Origin: an uncultured Bacteroidales bacterium
Lineage (GTDB): Bacteria > Bacteroidota > Bacteroidia > Bacteroidales > F082
Assembly: GCA_946185535.1 (NCBI GenBank)
Contig: CAMHJX010000002.1
Coordinates: 163,006 to 227,005 of the forward strand
Direction: 5' to 3'
DNA: 64,000 nucleotides
In this document: piece after piece, positions 46,578-64,000 of the stretch
Layout: every line of letters starts with the position of its first letter
Numbering within the stretch: the first letter of the stretch is position 1
Program-made: the position numbers and the translations under genes
The notes under the pieces: model-generated
What the model saw: the letters and a program-made list of their open reading frames with translations, nothing else
Told to the model about the DNA's origin: nothing
Databases searched by the model: none

Positions 46578-46638
46578 ATGAAAAATAAAACGGATTTCTT
46601 TTTTCAGACTAAAATTTTGATGGTGTCCTCTCTATTTG

Positions 46639-51700: not shown

Positions 51701-52051
51701 TACGGGCATGGCAAGGTGAATGGTGTGAACGGCATGATTCTGCTCCCCGACGAGTGGACGCTGCCCTCGGGCTTGAGTTTTACCGCAGGAAATAGCAACT
51801 GGGCGAACGTTTACACGACGGTACAGTGGGCACAGATGGAGCAGAACGGCGCAGTCTTCCTTCCTGCCGCTGGCCGCCGCCTTGGGACTTCGGTCCTCAA
51901 TGTGGGCAGCTTCGGCTACTACTGGTCGGCTTCGTACTGCAGTAGCGACAACGCGTACGGCGTGTACTTCGGCGATTCGTATCTGGGTCCGCAGAGCGGC
52001 CTCAACCGTTACTCCGGTCAATCTGTACGCTTGGTTCGCTCCGCTCAGTAG
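48797..52051 (+). CDS. Modular surface lipoprotein with C-terminal lectin-like, DGR-target-like domain
   Basis: 1084 residues. SPII signal with lipobox LAAC (Cys20). Then an FN3-like domain (about 32-118), three divergent InlB B-repeat-like modules (about 122-192, 193-262, 264-335; each with GYxFxNWT and VAxF), and alternating PKD/Ig-like and FN3 modules (about 337-835; VTASANPVTIP, SYSWTPSTGLN, YHYRVSAVYQGVESPKSN). From about 836 (GKFTINSSGAKVYFSNGNLQY) a C-type-lectin-like domain begins: DLFGWGTSGW, YANADWGVYNQISN, GWRTLTKDEWVYVF, AVFLPAAGRR, GYYWSASY (1040-1047) and the end SVRLVRSAQ. This C-terminal pattern is that of Bacteroidota diversity-generating-retroelement targets. No reverse transcriptase is in the window. 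Confidence 0.9.
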   Translation: MKKPNIILLLLMVLACLAACHKDKEMNAKDPVVSNVEMTASETQARFSWQVDFAGQFQTGVEVSQSENMVDLRRVEASKEEDKFVAVVDSLTEGKKYYYRIVVWNKFGSYEEMVKDFTTAKTFSIHVEASEGGTAAGGGTFAEGDTCTVVATANVGYNFVNWTENGSQVSADADYSFAVTGNRSLVANFTSQEYTITATAEPEEGGSVNGSGGYNNGDECTLRATANDGYEFLNWTKEDGTIVSTDPVYAFTVTETAAFVAHFQAIIYTISASAYPENGGTVTGGGDDFHYGDECSLTATAASGYRFVNWTNDDTVVHGEPTYSFPVTESGVYVAHFEEIAFDLDVSAQPTVIAQGGSSQLNAAASGGTGSFSYSWTPNASLNDASIYNPVASPTTTTTYTCTVTSGGQTGSGSCTVKVVCPPTDLTATVQNTNNVHLNWTTANPADSYNVYRNDTLIGQGVTNTNYDDNGLSSGTYHYRVSAVYQGVESPKSNEASATIYNSLSVTASANPVTIPEGGSSTLTATATGGDGNYTYSWTPSTGLNNTHIQSPTATPSSTTTYTVTVESNGQTVSDDVTVNVVKAPTNLTATVQNTNNVHLSWNATTPADSYNVYRDNTMIAQGITNTNYNDNGLSSGTYHYRVSAVYQGVESPKSNEASATIYASLSVTASANPVTIPFGSSSTLTASATGGDGNYTYSWTPSTGLNNTQIQSPTATPSSTTTYTVTVGSNGQTASDAVTVNVVKAPTGLAATVNGNNVHLTWNHANPHTSYKVYRDNTVIAQNITATSYDDNNLNWGTTYNYQVSTVYLGVESPKSNTAQAVIPSQVPTGAIDGKFTINSSGAKVYFSNGNLQYIGSSSTPWKFADHQWEVIGTSQGNTSQTTTRDLFGWGTSGWSGSGATYYRPWDTDNSNGSLYGPPGNYNLTGTYANADWGVYNQISNAASGWRTLTKDEWVYVFQGRSGASSKYGHGKVNGVNGMILLPDEWTLPSGLSFTAGNSNWANVYTTVQWAQMEQNGAVFLPAAGRRLGTSVLNVGSFGYYWSASYCSSDNAYGVYFGDSYLGPQSGLNRYSGQSVRLVRSAQ
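50095..51066 (+). repeat. Two direct repeats of about 486 bp inside the lipoprotein gene
   Basis: The FN3 plus Ig-like unit is repeated with a 486-bp (162-codon) period: CAACAACGT at 50095 recurs at 50581, and a more diverged copy starts about 51067. Copies share long near-identical DNA, so unit gain or loss by recombination would keep the frame. Confidence 0.85.
51914..52051 (+). other. Candidate variable region of a diversity-generating retroelement target
   Basis: The final 45 codons (residues 1040-1084) have constant GYYWSASY, N-R-Y and SVRLVR anchors. Between them are many codons ending in C or T at positions where related genes usually carry AAC or AAT (here GAC, TAC, GGC, GAT, TAT, GGT, AGC, CTC, TCC). 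That is the pattern left by adenine-directed mutagenic retrohoming. No template repeat was located in the window, so this is inferred. Confidence 0.4.
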
Positions 52052-52064
52052 CTGCTTCTTGTGT

Positions 52065-52105
52065 CCCCACCCACGGGCAACGCCCTCCGTTTTTCGGGGG
52101 TGGGG
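52065..52105 (+). other. GC-rich branched hairpin just after the lectin-domain gene
   Basis: Outer stem CCCCACCC (52065-52072) with GGGTGGGG (52098-52105), enclosing two small hairpins, GGGC-AAC-GCCC (52075-52085) and CCG-TTTTT-CGG (52087-52097). It begins 13 bp after the stop. It may be a terminator, although no T-run follows, or a structure like the hairpins found downstream of variable regions in retroelement targets. Confidence 0.5.
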
Positions 52106-52195
52106 ATAAGGCAAAAAACATTATTTGGAAAGCGGGCGCAAGGGGAGATTGTTGTATTTTTGGGGCGGGGAAAACTTCTTGAATAGATGCGGGAT

Positions 52196-52262
52196 TCGAA
52201 AAAAAACACCCCGTTCTCCCGAATTTGCAAATTCGGGAGGCTATAATATCAGCATTTGCAAT
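52196..52262. repeat. Palindromic dispersed element (CTCCCGAATTTG)
   Basis: CTCCCGAATTTG and its exact reverse complement form a perfect 24-bp palindrome at about 52216-52239, preceded by an A-run and CACCCCGTT. A related sequence (CACCCATTCTCCCAAATTTG) lies at 63929-63955. No open frame here is credible. Confidence 0.55.
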
Positions 52263-52280
52263 GCGGGAAAACAACGATAA

Positions 52281-52351
52281 GCGGCTGCCGTGGTACGACA
52301 GCCCTACAGCCCAACGGTGGGGTTGTAGGACTGTCACACCGTGGCAGCCGC
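52281..52351. repeat. Palindromic REP-like element, full-length copy
   Basis: About 29-bp imperfect inverted arms (GCGGCTGCCGTGGTACGACA... and ...CACCGTGGCAGCCGC) around a short spacer containing CCCAACGGTGGGG. One arm matches 36329-36358. With the hairpin at 52065 and the palindrome at 52216 it fills the 309-bp gap between the lipoprotein gene and the DUF2442/XRE gene. Confidence 0.65.
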
Positions 52352-52360
52352 AGTGCCGTT

Positions 52361-52759
52361 TTACACCGCCACCAACTCTTGCCCCACGGCATGAATGGTG
52401 TCGAGAATCATATCCATTCGGGCTTTGCTGGCTTTCTTCTTTCCGCTGATATACTGTGCCATCAGGCTTTGGGAGATGCCCATCCTTCGGGCCAAAGCCG
52501 ATACATTTAGTTCAGGGTGCGACATGAACAGTTTATAGAGCGGCGAAGGTTCTTGCTTGTCGAAAAACCCCTCAAAACTCAAATCTTCGTCCAACGTCTC
52601 CCAATGGATTCCGAATTCGTCATAGTCGTAGTCATTTAATTGCTCAACCGAGGCGTCTTTTAGTCTCGGATAATCGTCAAACAATTCGTAAGCCTCTCTG
52701 CCGTCCTCTGTCCGAATCCAGACAGCCGTTTGGGTCAGCCAAATCTTTTCTATTTTCAT
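52361..52759 (-). CDS. DUF2442 plus XRE-type helix-turn-helix protein (antitoxin-like)
   Basis: 132 residues. N-terminal DUF2442-like part (about 1-65: IEKIWLTQTAVWIRTEDGREAYELFDDYPRLKDAS, WETLDEDLSFEGFF), then an XRE HTH (about 78-122: LNVSALARRMGISQSLMAQYISGKKKASKARMDMI). Reads like an autoregulating antitoxin. It follows the DUF4160 gene by 16 bp; such pairs recur in bacteria and are suspected toxin-antitoxin modules, though not proven for this family here. Confidence 0.85.
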   Translation of the reverse strand: MKIEKIWLTQTAVWIRTEDGREAYELFDDYPRLKDASVEQLNDYDYDEFGIHWETLDEDLSFEGFFDKQEPSPLYKLFMSHPELNVSALARRMGISQSLMAQYISGKKKASKARMDMILDTIHAVGQELVAV

Positions 52760-52775
52760 GGTTATTTCCTCCTTC

Positions 52776-53015
52776 TTATTTGTTGTTGTTGAAAAACATG
52801 TTCCAATGTTGGGCTATGGTCTCTGCGTTCTCTTCAACAATGGCCTCAATCATCTTCAATTCCGCTGGTTTGAAACCTAGGTTTTCGACAAGTTCTATTG
52901 GAAATAGATTAAACTTCGCTTTTGCTCCTCCTTTCACCACATGCACATGAATTGGTGAGTGGTCATTGGAATAAAACAGGAATCGGTATCCGAACAGTGT
53001 GAAAATGGTTGGCAT
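52776..53015 (-). CDS. DUF4160 protein (toxin-like partner)
   Basis: 79 residues from the ATG at 53015: MPTIFTLFGYRFLFYSNDHSPIHVHV, the typical DUF4160 pattern (FGYRFxFYSxDHxPxHVHV), then KAKFNLFPIELVENLGFKPAELKMIEAIVEEN. The frame is open 16 codons further up, but the TAATTTTG promoter lies inside that part. The family function is not established; the tight pairing with a DUF2442/XRE gene suggests a toxin-antitoxin-like role. Confidence 0.82.
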   Translation of the reverse strand: MPTIFTLFGYRFLFYSNDHSPIHVHVVKGGAKAKFNLFPIELVENLGFKPAELKMIEAIVEENAETIAQHWNMFFNNNK

Positions 53016-53032
53016 GTCTTTCAAATTTTCTG

Positions 53033-53040
53033 CAAAATTA
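53033..53040 (-). promoter_or_regulatory. -7 box TAATTTTG for the DUF4160 gene
   Basis: Minus-strand TAATTTTGC 17 bp before the ATG at 53015; decides that start. Confidence 0.55.
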
Positions 53041-53063
53041 GGTAATATTTTTATTACCTGCAA

Positions 53064-53312
53064 CTATTTTGCACAAAATAATTCATCAAGGTTACATATA
53101 AGGCAAACGTGCCACCATGGGCTTGTCATCTGCTGCGGGTGGGTTGGTGTAGGGCTGCCTCAAGGTTGTTGAGCTTGTCGAAGCATTGCAGCAGCCGCAG
53201 GATTAATGGGAAATTCGTGGTGGATTAATGGTGATTCGTGTTTGTTATGTTTGGTGTTGGGTGGCAGGATGAATTATGAGGAATGTAGTTTTTTGCGTCT
53301 CTATTTGTAGAT
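53064..53312. other. Intergenic stretch with degenerate repeats
   Basis: About 250 bp without a credible gene. It holds GCAGCAGCC-rich sequence around 53133-53200 with partial self-complementarity, and a tandem pair GATTAATGG...ATTCGTG at about 53200-53240. No promoter box is recognised, and nothing else is seen. Confidence 0.5.
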
Positions 53313-53780
53313 TCAATTCGTTTCCCAATCATCCAATACATCCTCTTCCATCGCCATCTGTTCCTCCACCCGCTCAAGGGCGTAACTGGAATAGGCATCG
53401 TGGAAGCGAAGGTCGAAGGCGTTGAGCTGGTCGAGCTCATAATAGCGCGGTACGATGCCCCTGATCCTCAGTTTGTGGGTCATCATGATGGCATTATCGT
53501 AGGCTTCCCAGCTGAAAGGTGTGGCCTCTTCTTCCGTGAGGTCGTCGTCAACGTCCCAAGTATGCCCGGTGCCATTGGCATCGAAACGGTAAAAAACGTG
53601 TCCGTCTTTCTGCCAAAGCCCGATGAGCATCTCCTTGTTGGCAGGGCTGGCGTGCAGCGTGCGCGGGTCGATGGTCTCGGGATAATAAGCCGTTGGACGC
53701 AGCAGGAAATAGAGGGTAATGCCTATGGCCAATGCCACGGCGGCTATGATAAGGATGATGATCCAGCGTTTCTTGTTCAT
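53313..53780 (-). CDS. Membrane-anchored protein of unknown function (155 aa)
   Basis: 155 residues from the ATG at 53780 (a TTG three codons earlier overlaps the previous stop). A single N-terminal membrane anchor (about 6-26, IILIIAAVALAIGITLYFLL) is followed by a soluble domain with MLIGLWQKDGHVFYRFDANGTGHTWDVDDD and a beta-rich PRYYELDQLNAFDLRFHDAY. The IGLW...YRFDANGTG pattern is that of a lipocalin-like small sheet; this is only a suggestion. Translationally linked to the transglutaminase-like gene upstream (6-bp spacing). Confidence 0.75.
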   Translation of the reverse strand: MNKKRWIIILIIAAVALAIGITLYFLLRPTAYYPETIDPRTLHASPANKEMLIGLWQKDGHVFYRFDANGTGHTWDVDDDLTEEEATPFSWEAYDNAIMMTHKLRIRGIVPRYYELDQLNAFDLRFHDAYSSYALERVEEQMAMEEDVLDDWETN

Positions 53781-53785
53781 GGCGT

Positions 53786-55261
53786 TCAATTGATTTTAAC
53801 GATTTCGTGGTTGACGTTGGCGTATTTCGGCATGACGGTGCCGATGGTGGCATTCTGGTAGGTTGGGTCACACACCATATAGCGTTTGCCGTTGTGGATG
53901 ACGCTTCTGCCGGCCAGTTGCGCATCTTCACCAAAGCATATCGCAGTGGCCAAATGGTCGTCATAAAGCACGCCGATGATGTCGTAGCCTACAAACCTTT
54001 TCACCATCCAGGCAAAGAGCGCACAACGGTCTTCGCAGTCGCTGAAAGGCAAGCCGATGGTCTCTTCGGGGAAATAGTATTTCTCGCGTCCATGGTATTG
54101 CTCATCGATTTTGTAGACAAAAGCGGTTTGCACAAAATTGAGCAGGATGTCGACCAATTGAACCTTGTTGTAATGTTCGCTCAACGTGCCAATGGTTTCA
54201 GCCAACACCGTCTCAGTCTCTTTCGACACGGGGGCGTTGAAGTAGACGGGGAACACCGTGGTAGGGATGTCGTCGTAATAGCGCAGGTGCGAGGTGGAGT
54301 AGGGCAATGTGATGTCCATGTCTGCCTTGTTGAGGTGCAGTTTGCGCGACTTGTCGCATGCGGCAATGTTGAGCGACTTCTTGAAGTCGAGCCCGATTTC
54401 CTTCAAGCCGCTTTGGTCGGCTTTTTCATCATACGAATAAACGCTTTCGCCTTGCATTCCATTGCCATACACCGCATAGTATTTGGTGCCGTTGATGCGG
54501 AAGAAGGTTTTTGAGTACACTTCTTTGCTGTTGTCCAAGGCAAGCAGGAGCAGGAGCTGGTTGCTTTTTGAGCCTCGTCCCACCCTGGCCTTGAAGCCGT
54601 GGCTGTGCAGCATATAGAAGGCGAACAGCACGCGGTCGTTTACGTTGGCGTAGATTTTTTCAGTAATGGCACGAAGCAAGACGAAATAGCCCCATTCGTT
54701 CAATCCCATCTGGACGACGGCTTCGTCCAACTGCCGTTGAAGAATGTGGTCGGCATCATTTTGATGAAGGGTAGTATAGTATTTCGAGACCTGTCTTTCC
54801 CTGACGCCATTTGATGAGACCCTAAGTGCTTTTGGGACCTTAAATACCATGTCGCGACCGTAGAAGTTGATTTTGATTGTACTTGAAGGGTCCGTGCTAT
54901 GGTCGAAGACCGAGTTTTTGTTCTCGGGTTCGTTCTCGAAGATAGGGCTTTCGCTGTCCAACGAGGGAGCCTCCACGTCGATGATGCCCGATTGGACCGT
55001 TATGGAAGGCATGACTTCGGGCTTTTGCTTCGAATAAGCCCCAGATTGTCCGGCGAAGCTTTGGTATTCGCTCCAAGCTTGGGCCAAGAAGGCTTCGAAT
55101 TCGCTATTCGCTTGGGCTACGAAGTCGTCATATTCTTTTTGCGCCTGATCCTTGAATCTTTCATAGCTGTTCTGGATAGAGGAGCTGTCGTTTTGGGCAC
55201 TTAATCCTAAAGGTATCATTGCCAAACCGATGAATATGATAAGGAGTGTTTTTGCTCTCAT
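53786..55261 (-). CDS. Secreted transglutaminase-like protein, copy 1
   Basis: 491 residues. Signal peptide about 1-22 (LGLSAQ). Residues 25-75 are a charged amphipathic coiled-coil with a repeated Y/F pattern (YERFKDQAQKEYDDFVAQANSEF). The C-terminal domain shows a papain/transglutaminase-type triad: Cys409 (or C413) in FSDCEDRCALFAW, His436 in DDHLATAICF and Asp465 in MVCDPTYQNATIG. Middle region 140-380 has LNEWGYFVLLRAI and LLNFVQTAFVYK. Could cleave or cross-link peptides in the periplasm; activity is not shown. Divergent from copy 2, with a shared promoter region. Confidence 0.85.
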   Translation of the reverse strand: MRAKTLLIIFIGLAMIPLGLSAQNDSSSIQNSYERFKDQAQKEYDDFVAQANSEFEAFLAQAWSEYQSFAGQSGAYSKQKPEVMPSITVQSGIIDVEAPSLDSESPIFENEPENKNSVFDHSTDPSSTIKINFYGRDMVFKVPKALRVSSNGVRERQVSKYYTTLHQNDADHILQRQLDEAVVQMGLNEWGYFVLLRAITEKIYANVNDRVLFAFYMLHSHGFKARVGRGSKSNQLLLLLALDNSKEVYSKTFFRINGTKYYAVYGNGMQGESVYSYDEKADQSGLKEIGLDFKKSLNIAACDKSRKLHLNKADMDITLPYSTSHLRYYDDIPTTVFPVYFNAPVSKETETVLAETIGTLSEHYNKVQLVDILLNFVQTAFVYKIDEQYHGREKYYFPEETIGLPFSDCEDRCALFAWMVKRFVGYDIIGVLYDDHLATAICFGEDAQLAGRSVIHNGKRYMVCDPTYQNATIGTVMPKYANVNHEIVKIN

Positions 55262-55331
55262 GATGACGTGTACTTTGTTTGTTCACCCTATTAGAGGATG
55301 CCATGCGGAAATATTAGTCCGAAAATTTGTG

Positions 55332-55339
55332 CAAAAATA
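55332..55339 (-). promoter_or_regulatory. -7 box TATTTTTG for transglutaminase-like copy 1
   Basis: Minus-strand TATTTTTGC about 70 bp before the ATG at 55261. Confidence 0.55.
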
Positions 55340-55424
55340 ATAAACCGAATCAAAAAGTCTAAAACAAAACGGCTAAAACAAGGTTTTTTGGATGCAAAAA
55401 AATTTTTTGTTCAAAAAAATGGAC

Positions 55425-55432
55425 TAATTTTG
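55425..55432 (+). promoter_or_regulatory. -7 box TAATTTTG for transglutaminase-like copy 2
   Basis: TAATTTTGC about 45 bp before the ATG at 55477; divergent from the copy 1 promoter. Confidence 0.55.
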
Positions 55433-55476
55433 CCCCCTGATAGTCTCTATGTTTTCGTATTCTAAAATTGAATTGT

Positions 55477-57009
55477 ATGAAACGATTGACATTGTTAGGA
55501 TTGGCACTTTTCGTGGTGGCCACCTTAAACGCCCAAGTCGAAGACGACTGGCTGAAAAAAATGAAAGAAGAGCAGAAAGACGCTCTCAAGGAGTTTGAGG
55601 AATTCAAACAACACGCTTATCAAGAGTATGAGAATTTCCGTAAGCAAGCCAATGAGGAGTATGCAAGGTTTATGGAAGAAGCTTGGAAGAGCTTTGATAT
55701 CCAACCTGCCGAGGAACCGCCGGCGAAACCCAAGCCCCTCGTTCCGTTGGTTGACAACATAGATCCGAAGCCTGCACCGACCCTCGATCCCAAACCTAAT
55801 ACCCGACCTGCCAGGGAGACTGTCAGGGTGCCTGATCCATTGGTGCTAACGGAGATTCCTAGACCTGAATTGAGTCAAGTGGAGCGCCCCAAGCCTATAG
55901 AACCTATTGTTCCGAGTGCAGTTCCCATGACGGCGGCACAAAACGTGTACCTGTATGGTTCGTCCTTCTCTTTCCATCTGGATAACTATGAAACGCCGAC
56001 GTTGAAGGATGCCTCGGAAAAGAGTGTGGCCAAGATGTGGAAACAGTTGTCGGATCCAAGCTATGACTACCTCATTGCCGAATGCCTGCAACAGCGCGAG
56101 AGCCGCAACTTGTGCGACTGGGCTTACGTCAAGCTCACTCAGCAGGTGGCCGAGAAACAGTTTGGCAAGGACACCAACGAGGCAATCGTGATGCAGATGT
56201 ATCTGCTCACGCAGTCGGGATACAAGATGCGCATCGGCCGCGATAATGCCAATCATCTGATGCTGCTGATGGGCTCGAAGGAAAAGATTTTCCGTTATCA
56301 GTATTTCCAGAATGGCGGTATTAAGTTTTATATCCTTGACAGGAAGTACAACAGCAAGAGCCTGCACGTTTTTGACCATGCCTTCCCTGGGGAAAAGTCG
56401 CTTTCGCTTGCCTTGACCCAACCCAACTTGCAGGTGGAGAAGACGGAAGAGAGAACCATCAAGTCGAAGCGCTATCCTAGCTTGTCGGTAAAGGTGCAAA
56501 CCAACCGCAACCTGATTGACTTCTACAACGATTATCCCATCAATTTCAACTGGCATTATTATTCATTGGCTTCGCTGAGTCCAGCAATCAAAGATTCGCT
56601 CTATCCAGCCTTGCGCAAGGCCATTGAAGGGAAGACTGACCTGGAGGCAACAAATATCCTGCTGAATTTTGTGCAGACGGGCTTCCAGTATCAGACCGAC
56701 CAGGAGCAGTTTGGCTACGAGCGTCCGCTTTATCCCGACGAGACCTTCTTCTATCCTTATTGCGACTGCGAGGACCGATCCATTCTGTTCTCCTGCTTGG
56801 TGCGTGAGTTGTTGGGTCTTGATGTGGTGTTGCTTGACTATCCCATTCATATCGCCACGGCCGTCTGTTTCAATGAGCCTGTGGAGGGCGACTATCTGGT
56901 CGTGGACGGCAAGAACTATATCATCAGCGACCCGACCTATATTGGTGCCGTGGTGGGACAATGTGCTCCAAAATACAAGACGGTTAGTCCCAAAGTGATC
57001 AAGTTTTAA
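55477..57009 (+). CDS. Secreted transglutaminase-like protein, copy 2
   Basis: 510 residues from the ATG at 55477 (a TTG three codons earlier is less likely). Signal peptide about 1-19 (VATLNAQ). Coiled-coil 30-75 (EEFKQHAYQEYENFRKQANEEY) and a Pro-rich linker (85-140). Triad residues Cys431 (PYCDCEDRSILFSC), His458 (DYPIHIATAVCF) and Asp485 (IISDPTYIG) are all present, so this copy keeps the expected active site. The closest relative is copy 3, with which it shares a 71-bp identical DNA tract at the catalytic Cys. Has its own promoter and no terminator before copy 3. Confidence 0.87.
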   Translation: MKRLTLLGLALFVVATLNAQVEDDWLKKMKEEQKDALKEFEEFKQHAYQEYENFRKQANEEYARFMEEAWKSFDIQPAEEPPAKPKPLVPLVDNIDPKPAPTLDPKPNTRPARETVRVPDPLVLTEIPRPELSQVERPKPIEPIVPSAVPMTAAQNVYLYGSSFSFHLDNYETPTLKDASEKSVAKMWKQLSDPSYDYLIAECLQQRESRNLCDWAYVKLTQQVAEKQFGKDTNEAIVMQMYLLTQSGYKMRIGRDNANHLMLLMGSKEKIFRYQYFQNGGIKFYILDRKYNSKSLHVFDHAFPGEKSLSLALTQPNLQVEKTEERTIKSKRYPSLSVKVQTNRNLIDFYNDYPINFNWHYYSLASLSPAIKDSLYPALRKAIEGKTDLEATNILLNFVQTGFQYQTDQEQFGYERPLYPDETFFYPYCDCEDRSILFSCLVRELLGLDVVLLDYPIHIATAVCFNEPVEGDYLVVDGKNYIISDPTYIGAVVGQCAPKYKTVSPKVIKF

Positions 57010-57071
57010 TATTCTTTAGAAGAAAAAAGCTGAAAAATCAGCAATGTTGCCTGCTCTGTCAAAAGAAAGCG

Positions 57072-57079
57072 TATTTTTG
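57072..57079 (+). promoter_or_regulatory. -7 box TATTTTTG for the copy 3/sigma operon
   Basis: TATTTTTGC with TTG 22 bp upstream (57047-57049), 31 bp before the ATG at 57111; excludes the frame opening at 57084. Confidence 0.65.
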
Positions 57080-57110
57080 CAAGTTGAAAAACGATAATAA
57101 CACATTAGTT

Positions 57111-58637
57111 ATGAGACGATATTTATTATTAGGTTTGACCATGCTCATGGTATTCTCGTTGAAAGCCCAAGTGGAAAAAGAGGGTGACTTCGAAAAAATG
57201 AAAAAGGAATCTCAAGATTTGTTTGAGCAATTCAAGGAGCAGGCCAACAAGGAATTTGAGGATTTCCGTAAAAAGGCCAATGACGAGTATGCCCGTTTCA
57301 TGGAAGAAGCTTGGACGCCCTACACTGTCAAGGATGCGGAAGAGATTCCGATGGAGCCTAAGCCGATCATCACCTATGAGCATGAAGCTCGTGTGACCAA
57401 TTCCAAGATCGAGTACGATGTCATCAAGGATGTCCCTACGGATCGTCTGCCCAGCCAACGGTTGCCTTTGGCCTCGATATCCAATGAAGACCTTGAACTG
57501 GTCGGTCAGCCTGAGCCCTTGGATCCCATCATGGCTACTTTTGATGCCAGCACAACCATGCAGTCGCTTTCGCTTTATGGCTCTGCAATCAAGGTGCGCG
57601 TTGAGCCTGAACCCAAGAAGCCCATCAAGCTTAAGAATCTCACGGAGAAGAGCATAGCTAGAATGTGGAAGAAGCTGTCGTGTCCCTATTATGACAATAT
57701 TGTCGCAGAATGCTTGAGGCAAAGGAAGGCCTGTAACCTGTGCGATTGGGCCTACGTGAAGCTGACGGAAAAGATGGCCAACAAGTATTTCGGTGAAGGT
57801 ACAAACGAGTCGATAGTGCTGCAAATGTACATCTTGGTTCAGTCGGGCTATCAGATGCGTATTGCCATGGCCGAAAACCGCTTGACCTTGTTGATGGGTT
57901 CGAATGAGAAAATCTATGGATACAAGTATTGTGAGATGGAAGGTATACAATACTATATCATCGACAGGTCGCTTGAAGACAAGTCGATGCTGATATTTGA
58001 CAGGGCTTTCCCACAAGAGAAGTCGCTCTCGTTGGCTTTGGTGCAGCCTAGGTTTAGCCTTGAAAGAACTGAAAAACAGACCTTCTCGGCACAAGACTAT
58101 CCGGAGATTACGGTTACAGTTGAAACGAACAAGAACCTCTTGGATTTCTATAACGACTATCCAGTTTCCGGCCAATGGAATTACTATTCACACGCTTCGT
58201 TGAGCGAATGCGTGAAGCGTGACTTGTATCCGGTGTTGCAAAAGGCGATAGAGGGAAAGAAGGAAGTGGAGGCAGTCAACATGTTGCTAAACTTTGTCCA
58301 AACGGGATTCGGATATTCTTCCGACCAAGATCAGTTTGGCTACGAGCGTCCGCTTTATCCCGACGAGACCTTCTTCTATCCTTATTGCGACTGCGAGGAC
58401 CGTTCCATCTTGTTCTCCTGTTTGGTGCGCGAGTTGGTAGGTCTCGATGTGGTGCTGCTGAGTTATCCTTCGCATGTGACAACGGCTGTGCGTTTCAACG
58501 AGCCGGTGAAAGGCGATTACCTAACGGTTGGGGACGAGAAATATGTGATCTGTGAACCTACTTGCCTTGCTGGAGCACCTGTTGGCTTTAGTGCTGACAA
58601 GTTCAAGGAGAAGAAGCCCGTTGTCATGCGTATGTAA
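57111..58637 (+). CDS. Secreted transglutaminase-like protein, copy 3 (altered acid residue)
   Basis: 508 residues from the ATG at 57111. Signal peptide about 1-20 (MVFSLKAQ). Coiled-coil 28-70 (LFEQFKEQANKEFEDFRKKANDEY). Cys428 (YCDCEDRSILFSC) and His455 (SYPSHVTTAVRF) are kept, but the Asp of DPTY is Glu (CEPTC, Glu482), a change that may weaken or alter activity. First gene of a likely operon: the next starts are 51 bp, 2 bp and 1 bp downstream. Confidence 0.87.
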   Translation: MRRYLLLGLTMLMVFSLKAQVEKEGDFEKMKKESQDLFEQFKEQANKEFEDFRKKANDEYARFMEEAWTPYTVKDAEEIPMEPKPIITYEHEARVTNSKIEYDVIKDVPTDRLPSQRLPLASISNEDLELVGQPEPLDPIMATFDASTTMQSLSLYGSAIKVRVEPEPKKPIKLKNLTEKSIARMWKKLSCPYYDNIVAECLRQRKACNLCDWAYVKLTEKMANKYFGEGTNESIVLQMYILVQSGYQMRIAMAENRLTLLMGSNEKIYGYKYCEMEGIQYYIIDRSLEDKSMLIFDRAFPQEKSLSLALVQPRFSLERTEKQTFSAQDYPEITVTVETNKNLLDFYNDYPVSGQWNYYSHASLSECVKRDLYPVLQKAIEGKKEVEAVNMLLNFVQTGFGYSSDQDQFGYERPLYPDETFFYPYCDCEDRSILFSCLVRELVGLDVVLLSYPSHVTTAVRFNEPVKGDYLTVGDEKYVICEPTCLAGAPVGFSADKFKEKKPVVMRM

Positions 58638-58688
58638 TCTAATAGGCTGTTCATCAAGAGCCGAAGTATAATATAGTTGAGAAGGAAT

Positions 58689-59711
58689 ATGAAAACATTA
58701 CTTGTCGGAAAAATGAGATGGATTGTCATGGCATGCCTTGTTGCATATGGGGGCATGCTATCGGCACAGATGGTGCAATATGGATATGTGGTTGAAATGA
58801 ATTCGGGCGGGCGGGTGCTCCCCAATGTGGCCGTTTCCATTCCTATGGCGCACGACTGTCAGCCTACGGCAAGTGATGCATTCGGATTGTTCCGTCTCAG
58901 TTTCGGCGAGCATAAGGTGGGCGACGTGGTCATGGGTCTCAGCGCACGCAAATATGGGTATGAACTGGTCAACAAACACATCATTGAAGGCTATACCTTG
59001 ACCGACCGCGACTCGCTTCGCATCGTCATGGCGCCTGTCGAAAAGCTGAAAGAAGCGCGTGAACAGTATTATGCCCTGCTTGAAACCGCCAGCATTCAGC
59101 GCTATGACTCCACAGTGGCCTACCTGAATGTCCAATATGCCCAGCAAGTCATCACCAAGCCAGAACTGGACTATTGGCAGTCGCTGGCCGAAGCCGAGCT
59201 GAAAGTCGCCTATCAAAACTTGGACGAGTATGCCGACCGTATGGCACGCATCAATGCCGACGATCTGGATGAGAATTCACTACCAATTTACGACAGACTA
59301 ATATCAGGTGATGCTGAGTCGGGCTTGGCACTCATCGGTGACTTGCCGGAGAGCAGCGTGATGGATGATTATCTTGTTTTCACGGGTACCTATCCTATGA
59401 CGAATCCTGAAGTGTATGTTGCAGCAAGCAATTATGACCTGCTCAACATCCCCGATTCGCTCTATGCTGATGTGGTCGCCTTTGCTGGATACAACGACAG
59501 GTATGAGACCAGTTTCATGGCCAACGGACTGCATTATGCCCAAAGTTGCCGTCATCTCGGCATCATATTCTTGAGTCTGAATGACACTGTTTTGGCAGCC
59601 GATTGTTTCCGAAAGGCGTTGAAGATGTATGAGCTGCTGAACGAAATGAATGACGGCTATTATCAAGAGCAGGTCGAAGAGTTGCAACGCCTAATCAAAA
59701 GCCTCGAATAG
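58689..59711 (+). CDS. Secreted carboxypeptidase-regulatory-like/TPR protein
   Basis: 340 residues; the ATG at 58689 follows an AAGGAA ribosome-binding site, and TTG at 58677 is the alternative. Signal peptide about 1-27 (YGGMLSAQ). Residues about 28-110 form a carboxypeptidase-D regulatory-like beta domain (YGYVVEMNSGGRVLPNVAVSIP...SDAFGLFRLSF). The remainder is helical (EQYYALLETASIQRYDSTVAYL, AYQNLDEYADRMARINADD), ending in a TPR-like pair (YAQSCRHLGIIFLSLNDTVLAADCFRKALKMYE). Probably a periplasmic component of the signalling operon. Stop is 2 bp before the sigma-factor start. Confidence 0.82.
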   Translation: MKTLLVGKMRWIVMACLVAYGGMLSAQMVQYGYVVEMNSGGRVLPNVAVSIPMAHDCQPTASDAFGLFRLSFGEHKVGDVVMGLSARKYGYELVNKHIIEGYTLTDRDSLRIVMAPVEKLKEAREQYYALLETASIQRYDSTVAYLNVQYAQQVITKPELDYWQSLAEAELKVAYQNLDEYADRMARINADDLDENSLPIYDRLISGDAESGLALIGDLPESSVMDDYLVFTGTYPMTNPEVYVAASNYDLLNIPDSLYADVVAFAGYNDRYETSFMANGLHYAQSCRHLGIIFLSLNDTVLAADCFRKALKMYELLNEMNDGYYQEQVEELQRLIKSLE

Positions 59712-59713
59712 TC

Positions 59714-60301
59714 ATGCGCGAGAGGAACAAAGCCTATTTCGACAGCTTGAGCGACAAGGAATTGGTCGACTTGCTCCTTGCCAATGATGAAGAGGCAATA
59801 GAGTATTTGTTCTTTATCCGCTGCAATGGGATGTTTGCCCACATCGCTTGCAGCATTTTCCAATCGCAGACCATCAAGGAGGAATTAATCACTGATTTTT
59901 ATTTGTTTCTCAGCGAAAACGACTGGAGTAGGTTGCGTCAGTTTGAGTTCAAGGCAGGCCTGAACACTTGGCTGACAGTGATTGCGGCAAGATTTTTCAA
60001 AAAAATACGCATTTCTCAGACTAAATTAGTCGTGATAGACCCTCAATTGATTGTCGAAACCCAAAAGAACGAGGCGGACGACTACGACATCATCAATGAG
60101 ATGAGCCGCCTCGAACTTTACCAAGCCATCAACAGGCTGTCGAAACCTCGCGAACGTTACGCCCTACTGGCCGACCTGACGGGCAAACGTGCCGAAGACA
60201 TCGCCGCCGAGATGGGATGCACGGTAGCGGCAGTGTACAACCTGACCAAAAAAGCCAGGTTGGAATTGAAGACAATAATGCAAGAAAGGAAGGAAGCGTA
60301 A
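59714..60301 (+). CDS. ECF-type RNA polymerase sigma factor
   Basis: 195 residues. Sigma region 2 (about 15-95: DKELVDLLLANDEEAIEYLFF..., LNTWLTVIAARFFKKI) and region 4 with a helix-turn-helix (about 130-190: INRLSKPRERYALLADLTGKRAEDIAAEMGCTVAAVYNLTKKARLELKTIM). Group IV sigma factors direct RNA polymerase to a small regulon in response to an envelope signal and are held by the cotranscribed anti-sigma. Follows the upstream secreted protein by 2 bp and precedes the anti-sigma-like gene by 1 bp. Region 2 is somewhat degenerate, so low activity is possible. Confidence 0.9.
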   Translation: MRERNKAYFDSLSDKELVDLLLANDEEAIEYLFFIRCNGMFAHIACSIFQSQTIKEELITDFYLFLSENDWSRLRQFEFKAGLNTWLTVIAARFFKKIRISQTKLVVIDPQLIVETQKNEADDYDIINEMSRLELYQAINRLSKPRERYALLADLTGKRAEDIAAEMGCTVAAVYNLTKKARLELKTIMQERKEA

Positions 60302-60302
60302 C

Positions 60303-61763
60303 ATGAAAAACGAACCCATGCAAATCACCGATGAATTGATTGCCCGTTATCTCGAAGGCAAAGCGACTGACGAGGAAAGGAAGGCAGTAGAGGCTTACCT
60401 GATGGAGAACGAGGAGGAGATGGACATCCTTTTCGCTGCCCGCGCCGAGATGGCCTATCAGGACGACATCGCCCATCAGTCGGTGTTTGCCCGTTCCATG
60501 ATCGAGTATGACGAATATGCGCTAGCGGCAGCGTCGGAAAAGATGGACTGTGCCATCAAGGCGCAACAGATGGTGCTGCGCAACTACGGCATCGAAGTGA
60601 GCACGGAGGAACTGACTGCCTTGGCCAAGAAGCAAGGCTGGTTTGAAGAAGGGAAGGGCAGCGCCTTCGACTTCGTGGGTGAGTTGCTCAACCATTATGG
60701 CGTTGAATCCGTGCAGATGCGCAATGCAGGTGTCTATCACATCATGCATGAACTGAGCCAAGGCCATAAGATCATCGTTGGCGTTGATGCCGATGCGGCA
60801 GAAACAGCGGAAGCCCAGCACGTGATGCTTGTGGCCGGCATCGACACCACCGACCCCAACAATCTGAAAGTGGTGGTGCGTGACCCCTCACATCCCGAGC
60901 AAGACAATACCTATTCGGCCAATGAGTTCATGGAACGCTGGAAGCATACGGGCTGTTTCATGGTGTCAACCAAGCAGGCTGCTCCTTTGTCGGCCAATCC
61001 TGAGATGCAGAACTTCGACTACCAGCTGGGTTATGTGCGTAAGTTTGCTGATGTGGCTTATGAGGAAATCATCAAGCGGCTGGCTGAGGATGGGTATATA
61101 CAAGGCGGCCCTTTGACCCTTCGAGAGGCCTCAGGGACCACAGGCTCAGGGACCGCGAAAAGGCTTAAGTTCTATATCTTTGGAGTTTTAGCATTGCTTT
61201 TGTTAGGTGGAATCGGGTATTATTGTTGGCGTGTTTCGACTCCTTTGCAGATGAAAATCAACGTTACTGAAGACAAGAACTACAGCATACCTTCACTGCC
61301 CTTCACGGAAGGTACTTTGCAATGCGAATATGCCGACAATGCGGTGCAAACCCTTAAGGTGGGGGGCGACAATGCCACCGTGTTCCTCAATGAGATACCC
61401 TATAAATACAGGAATTCCGATGTGCATGTCGTTTTTGATGCAGAGGGCTACCGAACTATCGATACCGTAGTAAAGGTTCAAAAATCCTTAAACCTCAGTC
61501 TGAAACGCAACAACGACTTGGGCGTGGTGTTTGGTCGTGTGGTCGATTTTGAGACGGAGCAGCCCATTGAAGGTGCAACGATTTCGCTTCAGGACATGAC
61601 CGCGCAGACCGATGCCTTCGGGCAGTTCAGGATAGAGATCCCCTTTGCCAAGCAGGACAAGACCCAGCGGGTGCAAGTCACAAAGGAGGGCTATCAAGTG
61701 TGGGAAGGCCTGTACCGGCCTTCGGCCACCGACCCGTGGTACGTGGTGTTGTCAAGGAATTGA
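60303..61763 (+). CDS. Membrane protein: anti-sigma-like N-terminus, C39-like peptidase fold, periplasmic beta domain
   Basis: 486 residues. Residues 6-40 (QITDELIARYLEGKATDEERKAVEAYL) match the N-terminus of Bacteroidota anti-sigma factors. Residues 80-225 resemble a C39-type cysteine peptidase: Cys83 in MDCAIKAQQMVLRNYG, His173 in AQHVMLVAGID and Asp194 in VVRDPSHPEQ; the usual Gln before the Cys is absent. One membrane helix (289-308) is preceded by basic residues, putting the peptidase domain in the cytoplasm. The exterior 310-486 part contains a carboxypeptidase-regulatory-like module (about 405-486: GVVFGRVVDFETEQPIEGATI). It would hold the sigma factor and may regulate it by proteolysis (inference). 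Confidence 0.82.
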   Translation: MKNEPMQITDELIARYLEGKATDEERKAVEAYLMENEEEMDILFAARAEMAYQDDIAHQSVFARSMIEYDEYALAAASEKMDCAIKAQQMVLRNYGIEVSTEELTALAKKQGWFEEGKGSAFDFVGELLNHYGVESVQMRNAGVYHIMHELSQGHKIIVGVDADAAETAEAQHVMLVAGIDTTDPNNLKVVVRDPSHPEQDNTYSANEFMERWKHTGCFMVSTKQAAPLSANPEMQNFDYQLGYVRKFADVAYEEIIKRLAEDGYIQGGPLTLREASGTTGSGTAKRLKFYIFGVLALLLLGGIGYYCWRVSTPLQMKINVTEDKNYSIPSLPFTEGTLQCEYADNAVQTLKVGGDNATVFLNEIPYKYRNSDVHVVFDAEGYRTIDTVVKVQKSLNLSLKRNNDLGVVFGRVVDFETEQPIEGATISLQDMTAQTDAFGQFRIEIPFAKQDKTQRVQVTKEGYQVWEGLYRPSATDPWYVVLSRN

Positions 61764-61847
61764 AAGCTTGATAAGTAGATGAGGAAGTTGGGGTTTTATA
61801 AAAGGCTATAGGACAGCGACTTGTGATAATAATCATTTCAGGCCTCT

Positions 61848-61950
61848 AGCTTTTGGCCTCTGGCTTCTGGCAGCTTATCGAAAAGCTGAAGAGCTTATAT
61901 CCATCATTGAGCTGCCAGTAGCCAATGGCCAGTAGCCAAAAGCCATATCA
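61848..61950. repeat. Inverted-arm element made of GGCTTCTG/CAGTAGCC words
   Basis: Left arm of GCTTTTGGCCTCTGGCTTCT words (about 61848-61872); right arm GCCAGTAGCCAATGGCCAGT, then AGCCAAAAGCC (about 61913-61945), complementary to it. The spacer contains AGCTTATCG-AAAAGCTGAAGAGC. It lies in the 273-bp gap before the PEGA/TPR gene, with a promoter at 62011. Confidence 0.65.
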
Positions 61951-62010
61951 ATAGTCAAAAAATGATATAAGTTGATTTTGATCCGTTGTATGATTTTAGA
62001 CCAAAAGCAT

Positions 62011-62018
62011 TATTTTTG
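62011..62018 (+). promoter_or_regulatory. -7 box TATTTTTG for the PEGA/TPR gene
   Basis: TATTTTTGC with TTG 22 bp upstream (61986-61988), 18 bp before the ATG at 62037. Confidence 0.65.
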
Positions 62019-62036
62019 CGCCATATTTCTTAAGTT

Positions 62037-63863
62037 ATGAAAAGATTTACTCTAGTTATTATATTCTTTATAGTTAGCATTTGCGGTGCCTTTGCCCAAA
62101 ACATTTCAGTGAAGTCCTTCAAGTCCCTGCCGATGGACTTGACGGCTTCGAGCCTCGAAGGAAAGCGCGTTGACCAGAACGGGGATGTAGCGGCATTGAT
62201 TAAAGTGGTGACTACCGAGACGGGCTTTGTCTTTGAAGGCGGCACCTTGGGCATCGTCGACACGAAACAGACCCCTGGCGAGGTGTGGGTGTGGGTGCCA
62301 CGGGCGGCACGAAAAATCACCATCAAGCACCCGCAACTTGGGGTGTTGAGGGATTACTACTACCCCGTGGAGATAGAGGCCGAGCGCACCTACGAGATGG
62401 TGCTGACCACGGCGAAGATTGAAACCATCGTGAAGGAAGAGGTGCGGATGCAGTATCTCGCCTTCCAGATCTCGCCTCCGAATGCCACACTTGTGGTGGA
62501 CGAAAAATACTGGGACGTGGAAGCCGACGGAAGTGCCCAGGATTATGTCAACTTTGGCACCTACTCTTGGCGCGTTGAAGCACCAAATTATCATTCGGAT
62601 GCCGGTCGCGTGACCGTTGATGACCCTAATAACGCCAAAATTGTGCCCGTCACGCTGCAACCCAACTTCGGTTGGATTGAGGTGGCAGGATCGGGCAATT
62701 TGAAGGATGCCAGCGTGTATGTCGACAATGTTTTGATAGGTCGTGCTCCATGCAAAAGTGAAGCCCTGAAGAGTGGAAAACACACCGTGCGCATCACCAA
62801 GAAAATGTACGCCACCTACACAGAGTCGGTGAATGTTGCCGACAACGAGACCACCCGCCTTGCCCCCTCGCTGGCTGCCGACTTCGCCGAAGTGACCCTC
62901 ACGGTGGATGCCGATGCCGACATCTACGTGAATGACGAACGCAAAGGCATACGCACGTGGACAGGTCCCTTAGGCAGCGGTACCTACAAGATAGAGTGTA
63001 AGCAGGCCAACCACGAAACCAGCACGACAACCAAGGAGATTACAGCCGCCATGGAGGGACAAACCATCACCCTGCCAGCGCCGCGCCCCATCTACGGCTC
63101 GCTGAACGTGGAGAGCACGCCTAATTTCTGCAATCTTTACATTGATGGCAAGGATATGGGAACTACCCCCAAGTCCATTGCTGAAATCCTCATTGGCCAA
63201 CATACTGTCGTATTCACAAAAGACGGTTACGACCAACAAATTGAAACCGTCACCATCGCCGAAGGCTTAAGGACACAATTGAAAGCCACTTTGAACAAGA
63301 CCCCCGAAAGACCCGCCCCCCAAGCCAACAAACCCACCAACAGTTCAAACGGCCAAAAAACATCTACAAACTCACAAGCGGACCTCAATGCACTTTACCA
63401 AAAAATCAATGCGGCATTGGAGGCTGGTAAAGTCATGTCGATATTGAATGACCTCCTAGAATTGGACAGCTACGAACATAACGACCCGAGTGTCCCATAT
63501 ATCTTGGGTACCTTATATGGTGATCCTATTAATAGAATCTACGACCCCAACAAGGCCATCGCTTCTTATCAAAAAGCCTTACGTATCAACCCCAACTACT
63601 ATAATGCCAATTATAATCTTGGTGTCCTCTACATCACTTTGGCCAATGAACTAATAGCACAAGCCAACGATATCACCGGTGTCTCGAAAGCCGAAATGGA
63701 ACAATACGATAACCTGTTTACCCAATCTGACGACAAGCTCCGTACAGGACTCCCCTATTTGGAGAAAGCTTACCAACTGCAACCGTCCGAAGACGTCAAA
63801 ACGGTGCTTCTCGCCATATACAGAAAACTCAAGATGGACTCCAAACTTAAAGGGTTGAAATAA
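62037..63863 (+). CDS. PEGA-domain protein with C-terminal TPR repeats
   Basis: 608 residues. Signal peptide about 1-20 (CGAFAQ). N-terminal beta domain (SLPMDLTASS), then PEGA-like modules: about 120-200 (ISPPNATLVVDEKYWDV), about 215-285, and 345-415 (GSLNVESTPNFCNLYIDGKDMGTTP...GQHTVVFTKDGY). A Pro/Ser/Asn-rich linker (425-455) leads to a TPR domain (about 460-608, with DPNKAIASYQKALRINPNYYNANYNLG). The first 420 residues are paralogous to 46677; there the C-terminus is barrel-like instead. Likely envelope-associated. Confidence 0.87.
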   Translation: MKRFTLVIIFFIVSICGAFAQNISVKSFKSLPMDLTASSLEGKRVDQNGDVAALIKVVTTETGFVFEGGTLGIVDTKQTPGEVWVWVPRAARKITIKHPQLGVLRDYYYPVEIEAERTYEMVLTTAKIETIVKEEVRMQYLAFQISPPNATLVVDEKYWDVEADGSAQDYVNFGTYSWRVEAPNYHSDAGRVTVDDPNNAKIVPVTLQPNFGWIEVAGSGNLKDASVYVDNVLIGRAPCKSEALKSGKHTVRITKKMYATYTESVNVADNETTRLAPSLAADFAEVTLTVDADADIYVNDERKGIRTWTGPLGSGTYKIECKQANHETSTTTKEITAAMEGQTITLPAPRPIYGSLNVESTPNFCNLYIDGKDMGTTPKSIAEILIGQHTVVFTKDGYDQQIETVTIAEGLRTQLKATLNKTPERPAPQANKPTNSSNGQKTSTNSQADLNALYQKINAALEAGKVMSILNDLLELDSYEHNDPSVPYILGTLYGDPINRIYDPNKAIASYQKALRINPNYYNANYNLGVLYITLANELIAQANDITGVSKAEMEQYDNLFTQSDDKLRTGLPYLEKAYQLQPSEDVKTVLLAIYRKLKMDSKLKGLK

Positions 63864-63897
63864 ACCAGGCCTAGGAAAACCAACTAACAGAAAAAAA

Positions 63898-64000
63898 ATG
63901 AAACAAATCACAGCGTTACTGCTAATATTGCACCCATTCTCCCAAATTTGCAATCACGAGCGGTCGAAAGACATGCAAAAGTACCAAAAATACATAAAAG
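63898..64000 (+). CDS. Possible start of a secreted protein (3' end outside window)
   Basis: ATG at 63898 opens a 34-codon frame to the edge, beginning MKQITALLLILHPFS, a plausible signal peptide. But the segment 63929-63955 also matches the dispersed palindromic element at 52196, so the frame may be accidental. No promoter box was seen. Confidence 0.3.
   Translation, partial: MKQITALLLILHPFSQICNHERSKDMQKYQKYIK

Follow-up and report, generated by a model that had tools for sequence, protein, structure and literature searches.

How is a sigma factor set free when its membrane anti-sigma factor, a type of protein usually freed by separate proteases or binding partners, carries a protease-type domain of its own? 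This question is raised by a 64,000-nucleotide stretch of DNA (the window hereafter, to whose numbering all coordinates refer) from an uncultured Bacteroidales bacterium (F082; contig CAMHJX010000002.1, positions 163,006 to 227,005). Four open reading frames (ORFs) lie head to tail on its + strand, which encode a transglutaminase-like (TG-like) protein (57111-58637), the product of what we call gene 2 (58689-59711), an extracytoplasmic function (ECF)-type sigma factor (59714-60301), and a 486-residue probable membrane anti-sigma factor with an embedded C39 domain (60303-61763). The gaps of 51, 2, and 1 bp between them, listed in an initial annotation made from the sequence without database searches, were confirmed. 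Pairs of ECF sigma and membrane anti-sigma factors are well known; what appears new here is the embedded C39 domain and a two-block promoter-like motif. On balance, and with confidence somewhat above even, we read the locus as a membrane anti-sigma switch controlling an autoregulated envelope regulon, in which the C39 domain would be an accessory module that cuts in cis.

Architecture of the probable anti-sigma protein and its sigma factor

Judged from its sequence, the product of 60303-61763 probably consists of an anti-sigma domain without zinc ligands (residues 1-57; 60303-60473), a cytosolic C39-type domain (residues 73-228; 60519-60986) with Cys83, His173, and Asp194-Pro195, a membrane helix (about residues 287-312; 61161-61238), and an external part of ~174 residues (61239-61760) with a CarboxypepD_reg-like domain at its end, all encoded on the + strand. 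A linker motif, SVFARSMI (residues 60-67; 60480-60503, +), precedes the C39-type domain, and a highly conserved segment (residues 229-266; 60987-61100, +) follows it. There is one hydrophobic helix, with a best 19-residue Kyte-Doolittle mean of 1.93 at residue 290, and the CarboxypepD_reg match at residues 409-467 (2.9e-8) exceeds the curated Pfam cut-off, which agrees with the single helix and external domain described initially. A separate carboxypeptidase-regulatory protein had also been proposed, but this domain resides in the anti-sigma protein and Pfam detected none in gene 2. A full-length AlphaFold model (pLDDT 52.5) served for helix hints only, and an NCBIfam scan of the protein gave nothing decisive.

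Two Pfam families, Peptidase_C39_2 (PF13529, 1.1e-6) and Peptidase_C39 (PF03412, 4.1e-5), match the C39 domain over their curated cut-offs, and a C39 profile match to 3erv was obtained at 2.9e-5. Cys83, His173, and Asp194, recognized from the start as the likely triad, are invariant in 7/7 orthologs. An alignment of 36 C39 relatives was built from chosen loci and not from every hit (as were the trees; L069:5365-6201 was excluded), and in it Cys and His are retained in 36/36 rows, with Asp or Asn at the third position in 35 and Phe in one. The domain is under strong purifying selection: six comparisons against the window gave ratios of nonsynonymous to synonymous substitution rates (dN/dS) of 0.009-0.13, lower than the values for the anti-sigma and external parts in every case that allowed an estimate. 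The post-C39 segment gave 0-0.044 where estimable, while the linker before the helix evolves fast (0.34-1.5). A model of the C39 part, of low confidence, resembled mostly papain-like enzymes and C39 domains, the calpain, staphopain, and C39 rows being tied, so that this comparison does not separate C39 from the remaining papain-like families.

For the anti-sigma-like N-terminus that had been suggested, profile support is borderline and genomic support is better. zf-HC2 is the leading Pfam family for this region (12/17 relatives at E<=1, best 6e-4), with under-cut-off values of 0.16 for the whole window protein and 0.0059 for residues 1-57. By eye, two relatives that combine the anti-sigma domain (ASD) with C39 (L143, L144) show an H-x3-C-x2-C pattern in the N-terminal domain; zf-HC2 scored 0.0082 for L143, under the cut-off, and gave no match for L144. 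When an ASD profile was compared with PDB chains, the best rows, aligned over 19 residues (E 0.0017), were orotate phosphoribosyltransferases, and the anti-sigma chains ChrR and DdvA appeared in the same list at a non-significant E of 0.9-1.3. Genomic context was examined at 50 loci from a phylum survey (29/392 genomes matched) and an order survey (20/294), of which L111 and L132 belong to the window's own genome. A sigma ORF was present within ~1.5 kb of 23 of the 32 ASD-only hits (19/22 in the phylum survey and 4/10 in the order survey, where the 23 include the window genome's own paralog) and of 12 of the 14 hits including the C39 part, compared to none of the four other C39-only hits, which served as the control. 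The hidden Markov model for sigma factors was derived from 18 sigma proteins, some of them from loci then scanned (including L009, L010, L062-L066, L068, and L073). In the window and its six orthologs, the anti-sigma gene always adjoins the sigma gene (7/7). The linker pattern occurs in 9/9 membrane-type C39 proteins, 0/16 C39-less relatives, and 0/27 other C39 proteins.

The product of 59714-60301 is, by its profile matches, an ECF sigma factor with regions 2 and 4 and no region 3, as initially assigned. Region 4 exceeds the Pfam cut-off (Sigma70_r4_2, 7.3e-7), and although no Pfam region 2 match was found in the single protein, an 18-member profile aligned nearly full length (positions 8-190) to solved chains of ~190 residues, namely SigH (4.5e-8) and sigma-E (1or7, 3.1e-6).

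The closest known systems are class I pairs (sigma-E/RseA, SigW/RsiW, and RskA types), in which an ECF sigma factor is likewise encoded beside a protein that has one membrane helix and a small helical domain at its N-terminus; both zinc and non-zinc versions of these anti-sigma factors are described (PMC7406223). The window protein differs in that C39 lies between the anti-sigma domain and the helix and in that its class I profile match is below the cut-off. Dma1-3 of Bacteroides thetaiotaomicron share with it the phylum Bacteroidota, an N-terminal sigma-binding domain, a single helix, and an adjacent ECF sigma factor, but carry an extended disordered tether and, at the C-terminus, a beta-barrel (PMC13088901), whereas the window protein has a compact external part and a cytosolic C39 domain; with some 174 external residues ending in CarboxypepD_reg, it falls outside the Dma family. 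No published anti-sigma factor with a C39 domain was apparent in the literature searched, as represented by the opening parts of abstracts.

Gene order and the history of the C39 domain

Among 99 congeneric genomes, the C39 form of the operon was detected in seven, including the window's own. All seven keep the order TG-like, gene 2, sigma, anti-sigma and, since it recurs in 7/7 C39-bearing genomes, this order is beyond chance; a lack of conservation of the gene order or of Cys83, like a failed match to anti-sigma profiles, had been named in advance as refuting the initial interpretation. Two proteins encoded by members of other families in the order (L135 and L139) share the architecture of the window protein, and a sigma ORF adjoins each; a gene-2-like N-terminus lies upstream in L135, and no TG-like gene or gene 2 was recognized in L139.

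Four congeners (L051, L053, L054, and L055) have the same TG-like, gene 2, sigma, anti-sigma operon without C39, the TG-like ORF being short in L053 and interrupted by a contig end in L055. A C39-less paralog is also present in the window genome itself; it shares 60% identity over residues 287-485 and belongs to an operon that encodes a caspase-domain protein (Peptidase_C14, 1.3e-15). When the anti-sigma and helix/external parts were placed in a tree (25 rows, C39 columns excluded), L051 and L054 are the only two of the four that fall among the C39 carriers (group support 96/90), and L053 and L055 cluster with the caspase-type paralogs. The presence of C39 requires four changes on this tree, and a single clade of C39 carriers was rejected (p-AU 2.8e-7, or 1.65e-4 without two long rows). 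One origin of C39 followed by repeated loss is the simplest reading, with loss favored over regain; exchange of the domain by recombination is a possible alternative. Since otherwise equal operons exist without it, C39 would tune the switch rather than constitute it, and is probably an accessory module and not the core. C39-less sigma/anti-sigma operons with a caspase-domain protein were observed in L009:5766-8364, L047-L052, and L151.

Among 36 C39 domains placed in a tree, the nine membrane-type rows form one group (100/100), as do the 16 rows of a group mostly fused to a RyR domain (98/99), while C39 domains of an Hsp70/dynamin type are not one group. In the order survey, a match covering the C39 part was obtained in 12/294 genomes, including the window's. 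Best hydropathy means are 0.70-1.43 in the 26 helix-less rows and 1.93-2.71 in the nine membrane-type rows; most of the helix-less proteins have an anti-sigma-like N-terminus, and a sigma gene lies in 22/26 of their loci. In the first helix-less group, dynamin-like, Hsp70-like, or DO-GTPase genes are nearby in most loci (Dynamin_N and DO-GTPase by Pfam in L140) and a sigma ORF is found in 7/10; loci of this type are L010, L062, L063, L136, L140, L141, L144, L145, and L147, several with anti-sigma-like N-termini. One of them, on a plasmid of the cyanobacterium Anabaena sp. 90 (L147), encodes a C39 protein together with Hsp70 and dynamin genes; it was the one C39 match among plasmid records, and phage records gave no match, nor did viral contigs contain a relative of query alignment A5. 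In the second group, sometimes beside an M48 peptidase, a sigma ORF is found in 15/16 loci, four of these being weak. RyR was identified by Pfam in L066, by BLAST in L133, L134, L137, and L138, and elsewhere by eye; L142 and L143 were grouped here though too short to hold the RyR part. Helix-less proteins of the order anti-sigma-like, C39, RyR occur in L064-L073, L133, L134, L137, and L138, some with a zinc ribbon, and several have Asn for the triad Asp. Separately, L061 appears by eye to hold the anti-sigma-like and C39 parts as two adjacent ORFs (1-423 and 443-1249, at a contig edge), and an ORF of a repeated FNSTLVQLD unit in L145 (10086-10442) resembles the translation of a CRISPR-type array.

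Promoter-like motif, candidate regulon, and neighboring genes

Upstream regions that otherwise differ in sequence have in common a two-block motif, RGACTAAW-N16-CWCTA, which was read by eye in 24 upstream sequences before any searching and has 12 training sites. The window contains three exact copies, two of which are training sites, and four at <=1 mismatch, where 0.21 were expected and 0/100 shuffles reached four. The window's own genome has nine copies versus one of the reversed pattern (CWCTA form). With the YWCTA form, used for the 99 genomes and for distances to ORFs, there were 41 copies in the 11 operon carriers versus 27 in the 88 others (which include genomes with only a caspase-type operon), or 29 versus 27 after removal of the training sites. 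At least two copies were present in 9/11 carriers versus 5/88 others. The reversed control gave 23 and 228 copies, respectively, so a general abundance of patterns of this kind in carriers is not the explanation. Among distinct sites in the loci analyzed, 31/33 lie 21-77 nt before an ORF start, with distances taken to the longest ORF that starts no more than 250 nt away; the exceptions are L152 (inside a sigma gene) and L047. The concentration of the motif in operon carriers suggests that the operon may be autoregulated through it, and because the C39-less carriers G078 and G007 also have the motif, the presumed sigma target would be independent of C39.

One copy, GGACTAAT-N16-CTCTA (55421-55449, +), ends 27 nt before the ATG of a second TG-like gene at 55477-57009 (+), whose product is 55% identical to that of 57111-58637. 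As this gene is on the same strand, 101 bp upstream of the 57111 gene, and preceded by the motif, the transcription unit probably comprises five genes beginning at 55477, so that the order of the four genes first proposed stands while their number probably falls one short. A second copy (55292-55320, -) lies 30 nt before a divergent TG-like gene (53786-55261, -; 24% identical to the 57111 gene), a probable regulon member. A third (46606-46634, +) lies 42 nt before a PEGA-domain gene (46677-48512), also a probable member. Overall, motif-linked products, mostly with signal-like N-termini (these were assigned by eye throughout), include TG-like and PEGA proteins, proteins with BspA repeats or an FGE-sulfatase domain, a family of ~210 residues (no Pfam match in the one member tested), a protein that matches LPP20 below the threshold, and, after caspase operons, a small protein whose helix-turn-helix (HTH) match is likewise sub-threshold. 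The motif was observed before such an HTH-like gene, beyond the caspase operon, in L151, L048, L049, L050, and L052.

All three TG-like proteins of the window have signal-like N-termini. The transglutaminase label given to them at first is weak, as it derives from a Cys-His-Asp(Glu) motif and sub-threshold scores. Cys428 and His455 are invariant in 11/11 TG-like proteins, the third residue in the 57111 product being Glu by eye, and Transglut_core reached E values of 0.16 (the 57111 product) and 0.12 in two of the three window proteins. At 0.05, this family matched 0/11 TG-like proteins; a transglutaminase profile search of the own genome recovered none of the three genes, and a TG-like profile had no relevant match in the PDB. 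The gene 2 product also has a signal-like N-terminus and a sub-threshold TPR match in its C-terminal part, and its N-terminal part is common to a caspase-domain protein elsewhere in the genome. Directly after the operon, a PEGA/TPR protein is encoded at 62037-63863 with no upstream motif at <=1 mismatch, unlike the PEGA gene at 46677, and upstream of the TG-like cluster a large protein (48797-52051) has InlB-like, fn3, and SprB-type repeat matches.

A possible mechanism and its alternatives

In the switch that we propose, the sigma factor would be kept inactive by the membrane anti-sigma protein until an envelope signal, sensed by the external beta domain and perhaps also through co-made envelope proteins, leads to its release. 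The freed sigma factor would then act at RGACTAAW-N16-CWCTA promoters to transcribe the operon that encodes it, along with a limited number of other genes, mostly of envelope type. The C39 domain, placed in the cytosol between the anti-sigma domain and the membrane helix, may be an ancestral accessory module, most likely an active cysteine peptidase that cuts in cis near linker residues 60-67. The cut would let the anti-sigma domain leave the membrane and thereby make sigma release faster or irreversible, and relatives without C39 would have to free their sigma factors by another route. We infer the link between C39 and sigma release. It formed part of the initial interpretation, which is partly supported as a whole and weakened on this point by the four C39-less congeners and by the rejection of a single C39 clade.

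Several observations weigh against the proposed switch. The presumed oxyanion-hole Gln at position -6 of the Cys is replaced by Ala in 7/7 window-type orthologs and by Asp and Ser in the two from other families. The linker pattern was defined after looking. No GG is conserved before the helix: it occurs only in the window copy of seven, and double-Gly self-cleavage at this place was rejected on that ground. Several dS values are near saturation, and when L043 is paired with L046, constraint is stronger on the anti-sigma part than on C39 (dN 0.050/dS 0.75 versus 0.094/1.04). Long branches were flagged by the tree tool. As to the motif, one of the nine matches in the own genome falls inside a sigma gene, 2/11 carriers (G065 and G049), whose sigma factors are closer to those of caspase operons, have no copy, and TAATTTTG in several copies also fits the housekeeping -7 box of the host phylum.

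The loss of Gln also bears on a different explanation, possible although we doubt it, in which C39 no longer cuts but serves for binding or thiol sensing and, in response to a cytosolic ligand or to the redox or electrophile state, modulates anti-sigma affinity. C39-like domains that bind instead of cutting exist, such as HlyB, the first-ranked row when structures were compared, although rows less than 1 Z apart count as tied. Gln is absent in 9/9 membrane-type and 16/16 RyR-group rows and present in 10/10 Hsp70/dynamin-type relatives and the outgroup, so the window protein lacks a usual mark of C39 peptidases. Nevertheless, its clade retains Cys, His, and the Asp-Pro pair, and in CvaB (PMC3335142) colicin V secretion was affected only minimally by Gln26 to Ala, severely by charged replacements at this position, and was abolished by loss of Asp121 or Pro122. 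Therefore, Gln does not strictly define a C39 peptidase and Ala at this position is indecisive; by the same analogy, Asp in L135 speaks against activity of that protein. In LahT (PMC6363468), a distance of 4.3 Å separates the Gln from the oxygen, and His may take over its role. Because CvaB tolerates Gln to Ala and the window keeps Asp194-Pro195, it is plausible that the window domain is an active cysteine peptidase.

If so, its substrate may lie elsewhere. It is rather improbable, in our view, that C39 works at the inner membrane on proteins being exported or on peptide signals, with the anti-sigma protein only localizing it or reporting its substrate. In peptidase-containing ATP-binding cassette (ABC) transporters (PCAT), C39 has the same membrane side and order relative to the helix as in the window protein, and most motif-linked products have signal-like N-termini. 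The C39 domains of ABC exporters (ComA, PCAT1, CvaB, and LahT) and HlyB also share the Cys-His-Asp-Pro pattern, the C39 profile, and likeness to the low-confidence model, but the window protein differs by having no transporter or ATPase part, by its anti-sigma-like fusion, and by the replaced Gln. Fusion of C39 with anti-sigma-like domains is recurrent, which argues against other substrates, and no Gly-Gly leader ORF was found by a strict pattern near 12 related loci or in 50001-64000, a weak negative because three control stretches were equally empty.

Slightly less probable still is a conflict or cell-death system, in which TG-like and caspase proteins would be under sigma control and the C39 module would come from Hsp70/dynamin/DO-GTPase clusters. 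ECF sigma genes beside caspase and EACC2 genes are described in conflict systems (PMC8195603), and the paralogous operon with its Peptidase_C14 protein has similar neighbors; C39 relatives also lie in dynamin-like, Hsp70-like, and DO-GTPase clusters, including that on the cyanobacterial plasmid. However, there is no convincing EACC or TRADD-N domain here, the nearest being EACC1, a conflict-system component, at 0.012 in 1/17 anti-sigma fragments; the term C39 is absent from that study, and the motif-linked genes resemble envelope proteins (PEGA, BspA repeats, FGE-sulfatase domain). A final alternative, that residues 1-57 form something other than an anti-sigma domain, is very improbable: the absence of a significant single-protein profile match and the orotate phosphoribosyltransferase rows favor this idea, but the sigma ORFs at 23/32 ASD-only loci and, non-significantly, ChrR and DdvA oppose it.

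A bolder form of the proposed switch, which we offer tentatively and would not expect to hold in full, is a self-cleaving one, in which a single protein senses the signal, cuts itself, and frees its sigma factor without a site-1/site-2 cascade. The same anti-sigma/C39 unit, soluble in the Hsp70/dynamin/DO-GTPase and RyR/M48 clusters, might then represent a general protease-gated control of sigma factors in Bacteroidales. A wider C39 role in transcription control was not found in the literature searched, and the helix-less relatives near sigma genes suggest such a use. The predicted promoter makes the regulon testable, and a built-in, conserved protease-type domain that is present or absent among close relatives of equal gene order provides a natural comparison of the switch with and without it.

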